Source: Massilia sp. Root133
GTDB lineage: Bacteria; Pseudomonadota; Gammaproteobacteria; Burkholderiales; Burkholderiaceae_D
Assembly (NCBI RefSeq): GCF_001426525.1
Contig: NZ_LMEW01000031.1
Span: 445,949-509,948 of the forward strand
Reading direction: 5' to 3'
DNA length: 64,000 bases
Shown: piece by piece, positions 48,266-53,878 of the stretch
Layout: each line of letters begins with the position of its first letter
Numbering within the stretch: position 1 is the first letter of the stretch
Notes under the pieces: model-generated
Databases searched by the model: none
What the model was told of the DNA's origin: nothing
The model's input: only the letters and a program-made list of their open reading frames with translations
Translations under genes and position numbers: made by a program

Positions 48266-49033
48266 CTACACAACCTGGGCCGGCTTGACCAGCTTCACGA
48301 TGGCCATGCTGCAGTTCCCGCCCTTGCCCTGCGAGCGCTCGCCGGCCTTGTTGATCAGCATCTCGGACGCCTGACGGGGACTCGCCTTCGCGGTCACAGT
48401 GCCCAGTTCGGCATCCGTGAAGAAATGCCACAGGCCGTCCGAGCACAGCAGGAACACATCGTTCGCCGCGAGATCGAGGCGCTGGCCGAACGCAATGAAG
48501 GGCTCCTTGCGGCTATTGCCCATCACATTCAGCAACAGCTTGGACTTGCGGTGGTTCTTCGCGGCGTCCGGCGGCAGGCGGTCGCTCGACACGAGGTGCT
48601 CGACATAGGCCGCGTCGCTCGTGCGCGCCAGGCACTTGCCGTCGTGAAAGTAATACAGGCGCGAATCGCCCACGTGGGCCCAGACGGCCTCGCCATGCGG
48701 CGTCAGGACGAGGCCGACGAAGCTGGCGTGCGCATGGGCCTGTGTCGTGACGGCGTTCATGTTGATGACCAGATGGGTTTCCTGCACGATGTCGCGCAAC
48801 AATTGCTGCAGGCGCTCCACGGACGGGTGGTCGCCCGGCTTGAATTCGTCGAACACCTGCTTGGCGGTGTGCAGGACCTGTTCCGCGCCGGCCGCGCCGG
48901 CAATGCCGTCGGACAGCACGGCCAGGACGTAGCCGGGCGCGCGGGCGCCCGTCATGAGCGCGACCCGGTCGTTCTGCTGGGGGCGGTTACCGATATGCTG
49001 GGCGGTTCCCGCTTCTAACTTGTATGAGGTCAT
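48266..49033 (-). CDS. PP2C-family serine/threonine phosphatase with altered metal motif
   Basis: A 255-residue PP2C-type protein. Motif 1 QQNDRVALM, motif 2 VLAVLSDGIAGAAGAEQVL, the motif AHVGDSRLYYF and the SDG block VFLLCSDGLWHFFTDAEL are present. The last motif, normally GDN, reads GKGGNCSMAIV, so the usual metal-binding Asp is Gly; motif 2 lacks the second Gly of DGMGG. Activity may therefore be reduced or use different ligands. Such phosphatases oppose Ser/Thr kinases, for example in type VI secretion or stress signalling; no kinase gene is adjacent. Confidence 0.85.
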   Translation of the reverse strand: MTSYKLEAGTAQHIGNRPQQNDRVALMTGARAPGYVLAVLSDGIAGAAGAEQVLHTAKQVFDEFKPGDHPSVERLQQLLRDIVQETHLVINMNAVTTQAHAHASFVGLVLTPHGEAVWAHVGDSRLYYFHDGKCLARTSDAAYVEHLVSSDRLPPDAAKNHRKSKLLLNVMGNSRKEPFIAFGQRLDLAANDVFLLCSDGLWHFFTDAELGTVTAKASPRQASEMLINKAGERSQGKGGNCSMAIVKLVKPAQVV

Positions 49034-49439: not shown

Positions 49440-51509
49440 TTGACCGATCACCTCCCCTTGTCCGAGTCCGACCTCGACGCCGACCTCGACGCCGCGCCCG
49501 CGCCTTCCGAACCTGCCGGCAAGTACGATGCCGAAGTGGACCGCATCTTCGGTGCCGGCGGCCCGCTCGCGCCCGCCGTCGGCACGTTCAAGCCGCGCCA
49601 GTCGCAGACCGAGATGGCGAAGGCGATCGCGCATGCAATCAGCGAGCAGGGCACGCTGATCGCCGAGGCCGGCACGGGCACGGGCAAGACCTTCGCCTAC
49701 CTCGTTCCCGCGCTGCTGTGGGGGGGCAAGACGATCATCTCGACCGGCACCAAGAACCTGCAGGACCAGCTTTTTTCGCGCGACATCCCGACCGTGCGCG
49801 CCGCGTTGCGCGCCCCGGTCTCGGTGGCGCTGCTGAAAGGCCGTTCGAACTACCTCTGCCACTACCACCTGGAACGCACGCTGTCGAACGGCCGCCTGAC
49901 GTCGCGCGACGACGTGGGCCATCTGCGCGAAATCTCTCGTTTCATCAAGATGAGCCAGTCGGGCGACAAGGCCGAGTTGACGAAGGTCCCGGAAACGGCG
50001 TCCGTGTGGAATCTCGTGACGTCCACCCGCGAAAACTGCGTGGGCCAGGAGTGCCAGTACTACCAGGACTGTTTCGTGATGAAGGCGCGCCGCGAGGCGC
50101 AGCAGGCCGACGTCGTCGTCGTCAACCACCACCTGTTCTTCGCCGACGTGGCGCTGAAGGAAGGCGGCATGGCCGAACTGCTGCCGTCCGCCAACACGAT
50201 CATCTTCGACGAGGCGCACCAGTTGCCGGAAGTGGCCACGCTCTTCTTCGGCACGACGGTGTCGACGGGCCAGGTGCTGGAACTGTGCCGTGACGTGCTG
50301 GCCGAAGGCCTCGCGCATGCGCGCGGCGGCGTGGACTGGGCGAAGGTCGTGACCGTCGTCGAGAAGGCCGCGCGCGACCTGCGCCTGACGTTCCCGGAAG
50401 GCAGCACGCGCTTGTCGCTGCCGCAGATCCCGCCCAGCTCGGAATTCTTCCCGGCGCTGGACAAGCTGAAGGAAGAGCTGGAAGGCCTGATCGACGTGCT
50501 GGAAGCCCAGGCCGAGCGCGCCGAGACGATCGAGCAGTGCCGCGTGCGCGCCGTCGAGCTGCTGGAGCAGTACAAGGCGTGGAAGTCCGAGCCGAAGAAG
50601 GGCAAGGAAGTCGAGGGGGACGATGCCGTGCTGTGGGTCGAGGCGTTTTCCTCGTCGCTGCAGCTGCACAAGACCCCGCTGTCGATCGCGCCGATCTTCG
50701 CCGGCCAGCGCGCCGGCACGCCGCGCAGCTGGATTTTTACTTCCGCGACCCTGGCGGTCAAAAACGACTTCAAGCATTTCAGCGCACAGCTGGGCATGAC
50801 GGGCGAGCCGGCCCAGAGCTGGCCGAGCCCGTTCAACTACCAGGAGCAGGGCATCCTGTACGTGCCGACCGGCCTGCCGGAACCGAACACGTTCGGCTAC
50901 ACGGACGCGGTCGTCGACATGGCGCTGCCCGTGATCGAGGCCGCGGGCGGCCGCTGCTTCTTCCTGTGCACGACGATCCGCGCCGTCAACCGCGTCGCCG
51001 AACGCCTGCGCGAGGAATTCGCCGCGCGCGGCCTCGACTTCCCCCTGTTCGTGCAGGGCGAACGGGGCCGCACGGAATTGCTGGATTCGTTCCGCAACGC
51101 GGGCAACGCCGTGCTGGTCGGCAGCCAGAGTTTCTGGGAAGGCGTCGACGTGCGCGGCGAGGCGCTGTCGCTCGTCATCATCGATAAGCTGCCGTTCGCG
51201 CCGCCCGACGACCCCGTGCTGGCCGCGCGCATCGAAGTGATGGAAAAGAAGGGCATGAACGGCTTCGTTCACCACACCTTGCCGGAAGCCATCATCAACC
51301 TGAAGCAGGGCGCCGGGCGCCTGATCCGTGACGTCGAGGATCGGGGCGTGCTGATGCTGTGCGATCCGCGGGTGATCAGCAAGCCTTATGGGCGGCGCAT
51401 TTGGCAGAGTTTGCCGCCGTTTCGGCGGACGCGGGTGCAGGCGGAGGTGATCGAGTTCTTTGCGACTTCGAATCCGCCGCGGGGTAAGGATTCGGGGTCA
51501 GAGCCCTAA
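49440..51509 (+). CDS. ATP-dependent DNA helicase, DinG/YoaA (XPD-like) family
   Basis: A 689-residue superfamily 2 helicase. Walker A is AEAGTGTGKTFAYLVPALL near residues 75-90; DEAH box in IIFDEAHQLPE. Four Fe-S ligand cysteines fit the family: Cys in SNYLCHYHL, and three in ENCVGQECQYYQDCFVMKAR. The C-terminal motifs VLVGSQSFWEGVDVRG and LKQGAGRLIRD complete the core. Unwinds damaged or R-loop DNA. Start is uncertain: TTG at 49440 gives the longest form with no clear ribosome-binding site. The last six codons and stop derive from a hairpin repeat. Confidence 0.93.
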   Translation: MTDHLPLSESDLDADLDAAPAPSEPAGKYDAEVDRIFGAGGPLAPAVGTFKPRQSQTEMAKAIAHAISEQGTLIAEAGTGTGKTFAYLVPALLWGGKTIISTGTKNLQDQLFSRDIPTVRAALRAPVSVALLKGRSNYLCHYHLERTLSNGRLTSRDDVGHLREISRFIKMSQSGDKAELTKVPETASVWNLVTSTRENCVGQECQYYQDCFVMKARREAQQADVVVVNHHLFFADVALKEGGMAELLPSANTIIFDEAHQLPEVATLFFGTTVSTGQVLELCRDVLAEGLAHARGGVDWAKVVTVVEKAARDLRLTFPEGSTRLSLPQIPPSSEFFPALDKLKEELEGLIDVLEAQAERAETIEQCRVRAVELLEQYKAWKSEPKKGKEVEGDDAVLWVEAFSSSLQLHKTPLSIAPIFAGQRAGTPRSWIFTSATLAVKNDFKHFSAQLGMTGEPAQSWPSPFNYQEQGILYVPTGLPEPNTFGYTDAVVDMALPVIEAAGGRCFFLCTTIRAVNRVAERLREEFAARGLDFPLFVQGERGRTELLDSFRNAGNAVLVGSQSFWEGVDVRGEALSLVIIDKLPFAPPDDPVLAARIEVMEKKGMNGFVHHTLPEAIINLKQGAGRLIRDVEDRGVLMLCDPRVISKPYGRRIWQSLPPFRRTRVQAEVIEFFATSNPPRGKDSGSEP

Positions 51510-51534
51510 CAAAGCAAATTCGGGCTCTGACCCC
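51494..51534. repeat. Hairpin repeat 1 (GGGGTCAGAGCCC family)
   Basis: Perfect inverted repeat of 13 bp, GGGGTCAGAGCCC (51494-51506) and GGGCTCTGACCCC (51522-51534), with a 15-nt loop. Its left arm encodes the final GSEP residues of the helicase and the stop codon TAA lies at 51507-51509 in the loop. It may also stop transcription. Confidence 0.85.
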
Positions 51535-51560: not shown

Positions 51561-51602
51561 GGGGTCAGAGCCCTTTTAAAAGCAACACCGGGCTCTGACC
51601 CC
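51561..51602. repeat. Hairpin repeat 2 (same family)
   Basis: Same 13-bp arms GGGGTCAGAGCCC (51561-51573) and GGGCTCTGACCCC (51590-51602) with a 16-nt loop containing TTTTAAAA. Two identical hairpins 67 bp apart form a tandem pair between the helicase and the TIR gene. Confidence 0.85.
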
Positions 51603-51749: not shown

Positions 51750-52358
51750 ATGGCGATACGTTATGGCTGCTTTTTCAGCTATGCCCATGGGCGGCATGAG
51801 CTGATGCAGCGCTTCAAGGCCACGCTGGCCGATGCACTGCGCTGTTACCTCGAACCGTATTTCGACAACGAAGACGAACTGTTCATCGACACCGAGCAAC
51901 TCGGCGGCGGTGACGACCTCGACCGCAAGATCGCCCGCGCGCTGTGCGAAAGCGCGTGCATGGTGCTGATCTACACGCCCAAATACGAAGCCCATCCCTA
52001 CACCCGGCGCGAGTACGCCGCGATGCGCCTGATCGAAGCCGAGCGCAGCACGTGGTACACGCTGCCCAGCCAGCTGATCATCCCCGTGATCATGACGCAG
52101 CACCCCGTCAGCCTGCCGCCGCAGATCAGCGAATCCACGTTCTACGTCGACTTCTCGCGCTTCACGATGGCCACGGCCGACCTGAAGTCCAACCCTGATT
52201 TCTTGCCGGACATCGACAAGATGGTCCGGCGTATCGTCACGCATTACCAATACCAGAAAAAAACCATGCCGCCGGCGCATGACTGCAACCAATTCGTCCT
52301 TCCCGCTGTCCCACCCGCATGGCGTGAGTTACCGGATCCAACCTTCCCAAAAAAATGA
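51750..52358 (+). CDS. TIR-domain protein
   Basis: A 202-residue cytoplasmic protein with a TIR fold: RYGCFFSYAHGRHELMQRF (strand A), ELFIDTEQLGGGDDLDRKIA (BB-loop region) and ACMVLIYTPKYEAHPYTRRE, where Glu88 occupies the catalytic position of NAD-cleaving TIR enzymes. Many bacterial TIR proteins degrade NAD+ or make cyclic ADP-ribose signals in antiphage defence; others are scaffolds. It has a strong GGGGGAG ribosome-binding site and its stop overlaps ATG of the next ORF, so it works with the ParA-like partner. FxsC-like assignment is an alternative. Confidence 0.86.
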   Translation: MAIRYGCFFSYAHGRHELMQRFKATLADALRCYLEPYFDNEDELFIDTEQLGGGDDLDRKIARALCESACMVLIYTPKYEAHPYTRREYAAMRLIEAERSTWYTLPSQLIIPVIMTQHPVSLPPQISESTFYVDFSRFTMATADLKSNPDFLPDIDKMVRRIVTHYQYQKKTMPPAHDCNQFVLPAVPPAWRELPDPTFPKK

Positions 52359-52366
52359 GGAGCCTT

Positions 52367-53878
52367 ATGGAAACCAACCGCATCACCGCAGTACCGGCCG
52401 GTCAGGCCGGCGAGGTGACGACGTTCTACTCCTACGACAGCGCACCCGTGCGCAGCCTTGCGCTGGCCCATGCCGCCTGGCTGCTTGCCGGGCGCGCGCA
52501 TGCGAAGACACCGGTGCTGATGATCGACTGGGACCTGGAAGCCCCCGGTCTGCATCACTATTTTCCCCGCACGGACGATGGGCGGCACGCCAGCGGCCTG
52601 CTCGAACTGTTCGAGAGCTGCCGCGAACAATTGCACGGCAATACGTCGAACGACGACGCCGAGGCGCTGGCCGGGCGCGTGCTCGACACGCTGGACTGGG
52701 ACGACTACATCGTCCGCGTCGACGACAGCCGTCCGCTGTACCTGATGCGCGCCGGCCGCTTCGACGACAGCTATGGCGAGCGCGTCGACCGGCTCGACTG
52801 GGACGCGCTGTTCTGCGCGTGCCCCGCGCTGTTCCGCACATTCGCGGCGCAGGTGGCACGGCGCTTCGCCCACGTGCTGATCGATTGCCGCAGCGGCCGC
52901 TCGGCGGCGGCCAGCGTCTGCACGGCGCTGTTGCCGGACAAGATCGTCGGCGTGTTTACGCCCGACGCGCGCAGCCTGGACGGCCTGCAGGGCGTCGTCG
53001 CGCGCGCGCTCGATTACCGCTGCAGCCATGAGGACGAACAGCGGCCGCTGCTCGTCTATCCGCTGCCTTGTCCGGTCGACGGCACGGGCGAAGGGCCGTT
53101 GCGCTGGCGCTTCGGCGACGCGCCGCGGAGTCCGTCCGGCTACCAGGCCCGGCTGGAACGCATGCTGGCCGAGTGCTATGGCCTGTCCAGCGTCGTGCTC
53201 GACAGCTACCTCGACGAAGTGCAGCTGCCCCAGGCGGCCGTCAGCGGCATGGCACCGGCCGGCGGCCGGGCCCAGGCGGGCGAGCACGACCGGCTGGGGC
53301 CGCAGCGCGCCGTCGAAGCGCTGCTCGAATGGCTAGCACCCGGCCATTTTCCATGGCGCCCGTTGCCCGAGGTGCGGCTCGTGCAGGCCGTCGAATCGCT
53401 GCGCGAACGGGCCGCCGATCCGCAGGCCCCGAGCCTCGTGCGCGAACTGGCCCGGCTGGCGCAATTGTATTTAGGGCAACAAAGCGAACTGGAAGCCGCA
53501 CGCCGCATCGAGCAGCACGTGATCGCGCTGGAGCAGGGCCTGCACGCGATGGAGGAGGGCAAGCGCGGCCACGGCGCGCCGCGCCGCGCCGGCGAACCGT
53601 CGCCGGATGCGCTGGACGACAAGCTGTCGCGCCTGCAGGAACTGATCGACAGCCGCAGTCCGCGCGAGGCGCGGGCACTGGCGGACAGCCTGCGCTCGAC
53701 GATCCTGCGGCCGAGTGTGGCGCATCCGCTACGACGGCGCGGCGCTGCGATGATCAAGCAGGTCTACCTGCAGGAAGGCGACAAGGACGCGCTGCTGGCC
53801 TTCACCCTGGACGAGGTCTCGTCCCTCGAAGGCGCCCTGATCCAGGCGGCGGAAGGGCGTCCGCTGGTGGCGGGCTGA
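52367..53878 (+). CDS. ParA/MinD-like (KGGVGR-type) ATPase with degenerate P-loop, TIR partner
   Basis: A 503-residue protein whose N-terminal third matches the SIMIBI ATPase fold found beside TIR proteins: TFYSY-(P-loop)-RSLALAHAAWLLA and VLMIDWDLEAPGLHHYF, the latter the second nucleotide motif. In active relatives the loop reads KGGVGRS; here residues 24-30 are DSAPVRS, so the lysine and all glycines are gone. FAHVLIDCRSGRS matches Walker B. The C-terminal half is helical (ELARLAQLYLGQQSELEAAR). It is likely a pseudo-ATPase that binds or senses without turnover. GAGGAG at 52357-52362 selects the ATG at 52367. Confidence 0.82.
   Translation: METNRITAVPAGQAGEVTTFYSYDSAPVRSLALAHAAWLLAGRAHAKTPVLMIDWDLEAPGLHHYFPRTDDGRHASGLLELFESCREQLHGNTSNDDAEALAGRVLDTLDWDDYIVRVDDSRPLYLMRAGRFDDSYGERVDRLDWDALFCACPALFRTFAAQVARRFAHVLIDCRSGRSAAASVCTALLPDKIVGVFTPDARSLDGLQGVVARALDYRCSHEDEQRPLLVYPLPCPVDGTGEGPLRWRFGDAPRSPSGYQARLERMLAECYGLSSVVLDSYLDEVQLPQAAVSGMAPAGGRAQAGEHDRLGPQRAVEALLEWLAPGHFPWRPLPEVRLVQAVESLRERAADPQAPSLVRELARLAQLYLGQQSELEAARRIEQHVIALEQGLHAMEEGKRGHGAPRRAGEPSPDALDDKLSRLQELIDSRSPREARALADSLRSTILRPSVAHPLRRRGAAMIKQVYLQEGDKDALLAFTLDEVSSLEGALIQAAEGRPLVAG

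Follow-up and report, generated by a model that had tools for sequence, protein, structure and literature searches.

A TIR-domain protein and a MinD/ParA-fold partner with degenerate nucleotide-site motifs at the helicase–surE site of Massilia and related genera

The stretch of DNA considered here (referred to throughout as the window) comprises 64,000 nucleotides of a contig from Massilia sp. Root133, and those of its features that are of concern are collected in Table 1. An earlier note, made from the letters of the window, had picked out an ORF for a TIR protein followed by one for a ParA-like partner, lying between a helicase gene and the conserved surE-rpoS block and next to two hairpin repeats, and all of these elements were found again. 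In profile searches the best identification of the upstream helicase is YoaA, a member of the DinG family, at 877 bits (cut-off 680); downstream, 93 bases beyond the partner gene and on the same strand, begins the surE block, in which SurE, Pcm and RpoS each score above their own profile cut-offs, while NlpD, in which LysM and M23 domains are present, stays below its own at 223 bits (cut-off 311). The overlap of stop and start codons that the note had described between the two genes of the pair is only loosely right: it holds for an ATG at 52355, which overlaps the TIR stop codon, but not for the ATG at 52367, which stands behind an AGGAG and leaves a gap of 8 bases. The G+C content of the TIR gene (0.593, with a GC3 of 0.788) is lower than that of the window (0.680, the neighbouring genes having a GC3 of 0.85–0.90), while that of the partner gene (0.705) is not low. 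The hairpin arms, GGGGTCAGAGCCC, are identical over 13 bases and occur four times in the window without a mismatch, where 0.05 occurrences would be expected even with up to one mismatch allowed; they perhaps represent a dispersed repeat. Near the helicase gene there is also a gene on the minus strand (48266-49033) for a PP2C-type phosphatase-like protein (Pfam PP2C_2, 26.7 bits, cut-off 24), which is seen at the same place in many of those relatives whose locus extends that far.

Table 1 Positions in the window of the TIR/partner pair, its sequence motifs and the neighbouring hairpins.
Feature	Position	Strand	Remarks
Two adjacent hairpins, GGGGTCAGAGCCC arms, helicase-TIR gap	51494..51534 and 51561..51602	.	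Link to TIR/partner pair only putative
TIR-domain protein, 202 aa	51750..52358	+	Pfam TIR_2 over cut-off; AF2 model; TIR fold
Glu88 codon, NADase-type glutamate	52011..52013	+	Context YTRREYAAM; conserved
MinD/ParA-fold pseudo-ATPase partner (predicted), 503 aa from ATG 52367	52367..53878	+	Ortholog of KGGTGR ATPases; basis: AAA_KGGVGR score under cut-off, AF2 model, fold match, tree
Degenerate deviant-Walker-A loop DSAPVRS, residues 24-30	52436..52456	+	E/D at 24 in 70/70 loop-bearing clade rows; R29 invariant
Retained IDWD motif, residues 53-56	52523..52534	+	D54 and D56 unchanged within clade
Degenerate Walker B/switch II VLIDCRSGRSAAAS, residues 170-183	52874..52915	+	Usual intact form VLVDSRTGRTDSAG; S174, D180, G183 lost
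C-terminal antiparallel helices, apparent TPR remnant (inferred)	53363..53848	+	Helices in model; TPRs in longer orthologues

The first protein of the pair matches the Pfam family TIR_2 (PF13676) with an E-value of 5e-11 and 43.6 bits, above the gathering cut-off of 28, and its AF2 model (for which, as for the partner, alignments of relatives were used and a single chain was modelled) has a pLDDT of 87 and a fold that matches the SPARTA TIR (Z 14.7), AbTir (Z 13.5) and SARM1 (Z 12.0). Members of the TIR family often cleave NAD+, and a profile search aligns Glu88 of the window protein with a Glu of the plant Roq1 TIR that is presumably the catalytic glutamate. Glutamate occupies this position in all 103 aligned rows (some species being present twice) and in 166 of 169 TIR hits; the remaining three, which are truncated copies or fragments, have a gap there. 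The note had named a TIR without conservation of Glu88 across orthologues as an outcome that would refute its reading; the residue is conserved, and by this glutamate the protein is predicted to be of the NADase type. A second match to TIR_2 above the cut-off occurs elsewhere in the same genome (L204 1501-1779; C33:417054-417332), where, by eye, it lies downstream of an ORF resembling an XRE/ImmA-type regulator and has transposase-like sequence nearby.

The second protein has a MinD/ParA (SIMIBI) fold, its model (pLDDT 82, pTM 0.79) matching McdA with a Z of 21.7 (rmsd 3.2, 256 aligned) and E. coli MinD-ATP with a Z of 20.8. Its relationship to the KGGVGR-type ATPases (NCBIfam AAA_KGGVGR, NF047398) is one of an orthologous domain that shares the IDWDLEAPG motif, and for which the Duganella orthologue scores 133 bits, whereas the window copy scores 85.9 bits (4e-24), just below the cut-off of 90, and has no KGG signature. 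As the note had reported, the framing motifs are in place, with TFYSY before the loop and IDWDLEAPG after it, and DSAPVRS stands where KGGVGRS would be expected. At switch II, where SRTGxTD would be looked for, the partner has CRSGRSAA, having lost three residues (S174, D180 and G183) that are conserved in intact and distant forms. The further claim that the P-loop has lost its lysine and glycines needs some qualification: the signature lysine and the glycines are indeed gone, but we take the canonical P-loop lysine position to be already an Arg in KGGVGR-type proteins, and this corresponds to R29 of the partner, which is kept. By its motifs, then, the nucleotide site is predicted to be dead in the Massilia-type lineage, and the view of the partner as a pseudo-ATPase has been borne out to the extent that purifying selection has maintained fold and frame while the site motifs are lost, in the orthologues as well as in the window copy. 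No close active paralogue was seen when the genome was searched with the profile, since no protein in it passes the KGGVGR cut-off, the best being the window copy at 88.3 bits and the next reaching 42.6.

Wherever the flanks could be read, the order of genes at this site is yoaA-type helicase, TIR, partner and surE-pcm-nlpD-rpoS (as far as rpoS where the locus reaches it), and the site was seen in records of five genera, namely Massilia, Telluria, Duganella, Rugamonas and Janthinobacterium; some copies have up to several kilobases of other genes in the gap between helicase and TIR or in that between partner and surE. Of 392 genomes of the family, 163 have the TIR gene (one copy per row listed). 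All of them belong to 5 of the 44 genera sampled, no TIR gene having been found in the other 39, and they include 51 of the 56 genomes of the window's own genus. The note had spoken of the pair as inserted; taken to mean a recent, island-like element, this description is not supported by the single helicase–surE site or the high occupancy within the genus, which do not show the patchy, island-borne distribution of a mobile defence system. Its suggestion that the two genes are coupled fares better, as they do not occur randomly apart: 161 of the 163 TIR carriers also have the partner. Where the TIR gene is missing from genomes of the genus, the helicase adjoins surE in three cases, an oxidoreductase gene alone lies between them in one, and an oxidoreductase gene together with a remnant of the partner in one. 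Because both genes are missing at the site in G098, G126, G214 and G245, with the partner remnant alone in G364, TIR and partner tend to vanish together.

Two further genomes show unusual arrangements. In G244, from a sister genus, the TIR frame is intact (L194 1295-1975, minus strand) and there is no partner between helicase and surE; in G372 (L190 1352-2515, minus strand) the N-terminus of the TIR protein is fused in frame to a TPR remnant, with an internal deletion across both genes. The first of these argues, as a single instance, against the partner being a strict antitoxin for the TIR protein. A third operon component in the gap between helicase and TIR was also considered and rejected, since in at least 9 of 12 loci the gap gene is on the opposite strand and of the quinone-oxidoreductase/zinc-dehydrogenase type (the L055 copy scoring 265 bits for the PIG3 family, cut-off 297). 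In four of the eight non-carrier genera examined (g3, g13, g16 and g17) a gene of this type separates helicase from surE although the pair is lacking, and for this reason it is regarded as old context; in g5 the helicase adjoins surE, and the surroundings of surE in g2, g9 and g15 showed no helicase.

Of the 23 loci outside the family, 19 have a TIR gene directly before the KGGTGR gene at E <= 1e-4 (three being weak) and 16 at 1e-6; among the nine homologues scanned, such ATPases carry modules of the NB-ARC, TIR, WD40, SH3, HD or TPR kinds. Phage carriage was rejected, as neither 50,697 phage records nor viral contigs contain a match to the TIR protein; nine plasmid records match the partner, at less than 36% identity and with at most 53% covered. 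Instead of an anti-phage system, the pair might be a module for housekeeping or stress regulation that belongs with the surE-pcm-nlpD-rpoS block. Such a role would be consistent with the fixed position directly upstream of surE wherever it is seen, mostly across a short gap on the same strand, with the agreement of the SurE, TIR and partner trees on their main split (described below), and with the absence of TIR matches from phage records and viral contigs. We nevertheless think it very unlikely: the TIR gene is confined to five of the genera sampled, the pair is missing in some Massilia that keep surE, and the NB-ARC, TIR, WD40, HD or TPR modules found in some of the nine homologues are typical of conflict systems.

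The loop of the partner was read in 90 genomes, out of 166 in which the partner has a match (44 of the 51 g1 carriers, 20 of 22 in g4 and g12, and 26 in g6 and g40), five of the 166 being weak matches in other genera. At the position of the signature lysine all 64 copies from the Massilia-like genera g1, g4 and g12 are acidic (Glu in 46, Asp in 18), against Lys in 24 of 26 copies and Gln in 2 of 26 from the sister genera g6 and g40; the Duganella, Rugamonas and Janthinobacterium relatives mostly have KGGTGR[T/S], and outside the family the loop reads KGG[T/V/A]GR[S/T] in all 23 loci. The note had asked whether the degenerate loop is conserved or belongs to a lone outlier, and these counts answer for conservation. 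Sequencing error is very unlikely, because 13 near relatives have an identical or nearly identical loop with synonymous codon differences, and it was rejected together with a lone mutation.

A tree of 141 distinct partner rows, calculated with the motif columns omitted, places the 70 Glu/Asp rows and one row without a loop (L041) in one clade with an SH-aLRT of 99 (L106, a partial copy with its loop intact, L102, which has no domain, L001, the genome's own copy, and identical rows were left out). The two Gln rows form a separate group, suggesting a second, separate loss in those two copies. The same division between Lys and Glu/Asp forms appears as a single branch in the TIR tree (SH-aLRT 99) and in the SurE tree (SH-aLRT 85), and since the three trees agree on the split, they point to one main and one small loss, the pair apparently being vertically inherited.

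Columns conserved in 39 intact family rows (a set that leaves out seven derived Lys rows, L125, L135 and L163-L167) together with 22 distant rows were compared with the 70-row clade. Those lost in most of the clade are K24, G25, G28, M31 and N35 in the loop and the next helix, S174, D180 and G183 in switch II, R236, E297 and five more; those kept include R29, D54, D56, P60, G177, Y217, R218, R226 and P232. The losses are concentrated in the two nucleotide motifs, with 8 of 19 columns there against 7 of 54 elsewhere (p 0.011), the set of sites having been chosen after the motifs were seen. Switch II has decayed along with the loop, and the fold, IDWD, Arg29 and most reading frames are kept. Over the clade, whose tree length is 14.5 substitutions per site, residue 24 has undergone one amino-acid change and eight codon changes, R29 none and three, S30 one and nine, and residue 27 thirteen and 25 (each from 65 of 70 rows). 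On these counts the body of the loop drifts while the acid at 24 and Arg29 are held, although residue 24 is conserved rather than exceptional, because 83 of 316 columns (about a quarter) change as little.

It could be supposed from this pattern that the site has been re-specialised, such that R29, S30, D54 and D56 bind some nucleotide-like ligand (for instance the product of the TIR protein) in a non-canonical geometry. R29, D54 and D56 are indeed unchanged in the clade, S30 has its single change and residue 24 is constrained, but most copies have lost G25, G28, Asp180 of switch II, Arg236 and Glu297, all of which the intact forms conserve, and folding may be the sole reason why D54, D56 and R29 are retained; we consider the proposal improbable.

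Estimates of selection bear on whether the partner is being retained or is wearing away. For its domain the median dN/dS is 0.37 over 433 pairs from the lost clade and 0.19 over 149 pairs from the intact clade, the corresponding values being 0.48 and 0.38 for the C-terminal region and 0.13 and 0.08 for the TIR protein; the pairs (synonymous distance 0.1-0.6) are non-independent and biased by GC-rich codons. On these figures the partner is still under purifying selection in the lost clade, less tightly than in the intact clade. The C-terminal region of the orthologues has strong TPR_10/TPR_12 matches and is kinesin-light-chain-like, whereas that of the window's relatives is shortened, and in the window partner no TPR family scores over the Pfam cut-off. 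The domain frame is uninterrupted in 66 of the 70 clade rows, the broken or truncated copies being L160, L081, L149 and L077 (the contig of L081 also has fragmented neighbour genes). Ten Massilia-type partners (L129, L142, L143, L147, L153, L120, L139, L072, L103 and L104) carry an insert of some 20-65 residues near domain position 71, with the frame intact.

The main rival explanation is one of slow decay, in which the partner gave up using a nucleotide, came under looser constraint and left the function to the TIR protein alone, and it must be treated as serious because of the doubled dN/dS, the erosion of the TPRs and the deletions. Besides the higher dN/dS after the loss and the shortened C-terminus, it can call on the four broken copies, the five genomes of the genus that lack the pair, the TIR-only G244 and the fusion remnant of G372. 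It accords less well with a frame kept in nearly all rows over so long a tree, with dN/dS well below 1, with the near-frozen state of residue 24, R29, S30 and D54/D56, and with the tendency of both genes to go together, and on balance we regard it as rather unlikely.

The explanation preferred here, and held with moderate confidence, is that the pair is a two-gene TIR effector module whose partner would be a retained, nucleotide-independent pseudo-ATPase scaffold or sensor, drawn from a known conflict-system family. In its favour are the order of TIR before ATPase, the co-occurrence of the genes, the loss in one clade, the enrichment of losses at the motifs, the kept fold and frame, the frozen residues 24 and 29, the second loss and the lack of any close active paralogue in the profile search of the genome. 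Against it must be set the doubling of the domain dN/dS and the shortened C-terminal region, the absence of the pair from some genomes of the genus together with the TIR-only G244 and the broken copies, and the lack of any sign of special co-evolution in the tree distances, since the Spearman coefficient between TIR and partner (0.54) is no better than those of each with SurE (0.80 for TIR, 0.64 for the partner).

As to how such a module might have arisen and might work, the observed gene order, folds and TPRs suggest an ancestor in which the TIR gene stood together with that of a KGGTGR protein of MinD/ParA fold bearing C-terminal TPRs, a layout that may have served as a sensor or switch like those of other TIR- and STAND-type conflict systems. 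The loss of the nucleotide-site motifs falls in the ancestor of the Massilia-like genera, after which the partner was kept under purifying selection that, on the observed ratios, is weaker than before. It may now do without an ATP cycle and serve to hold or assemble the TIR protein, whether as a scaffold or as a sensor gated by a ligand; the TIR protein, if it behaves as its family suggests, would cleave or cyclise NAD+ once released or assembled, under stress or phage attack. A more specific and distinctly unlikely variant would have the loop rebuilt so that a salt bridge between acid 24 and Arg29 across a dimer replaces ATP; the partner would then form a ParA-type dimer constitutively, with no nucleotide bound, and would clamp the TIR enzyme or act as its template.

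The idea of an inactive ParA-like partner has a precedent in Kaur et al. 2020 (PMC7159879), who describe for VMAP conflict systems MinD/ParA-like domains "predicted to be inactive", and for peptide-processing systems an inactive domain of this kind with TIR/AP-ATPase-type proteins. In this light the note's remark that a pseudo-ATPase would be an unusual partner was too strong. Since related domains are called inactive in that paper, the ancestral protein may also never have worked as an ATPase, a point that weighs against the preferred explanation. The actinobacterial FxSxx-COOH/VMAP systems, for which the same paper reports the inactive-predicted domain, resemble the present pair also in that the window TIR is similar to FxsC (42.5 bits, cut-off 130) and the TPRs of the Duganella orthologue to FxSxx_TPR (125 bits, cut-off 300). 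However, these scores are far below the curated cut-offs, the window pair lies at a fixed proteobacterial locus, and its partner is without recognisable TPRs (FxSxx_TPR giving no row for it at E <= 1); with radical SAM FxsB also absent over its cut-off in the genome (39.2 against 370 bits), all three components fall short and the pair is not assigned to the Fxs systems. Nor was it assigned to Thoeris, where type III ThcB4 gives 21.4 bits against a curated cut-off of 220. As a pointer to anti-phage function there is only a match to a PADLOC candidate, PDC-M28B, at 2e-7 over residues 17-66 of the window partner and at 2e-16 for the Duganella orthologue. A more distant analogy, and only an analogy, is the N-terminal domain of BcsE, which is described in PMC7439463 as ATPase-like with a diverged Walker A and kept for oligomerisation in a multi-protein complex; unlike the partner it is RecA-like and belongs to cellulose secretion, with no TIR system.

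The literature searched (which included few subscription papers) gave no title on a TIR/pseudo-ATPase pair and nothing relevant on KGGVGR or FxsC with TIR. Within that literature, what appears to be new is a loss that can be traced against sister orthologues still intact at this locus, the acid/Arg pattern of the loop, and the core chromosomal position. The locus amounts to a natural experiment, with one TIR operon at one site whose motifs are intact in the Duganella/Janthinobacterium-type relatives and degenerate in the Massilia-type ones, and it is therefore testable whether ParA-like TIR partners need an ATP cycle or act as scaffolds, the relatives with intact motifs offering a ready comparison for the role of the ATP site. 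Among the short partners of g40 (L163-L167; ORFs of 350-511 aa), KGG[V/A]GRT is kept, switch II is weakened (ARSGRAD/ARSGRGD) and the C-terminal region is nearly gone, a form that is possibly an intermediate state.
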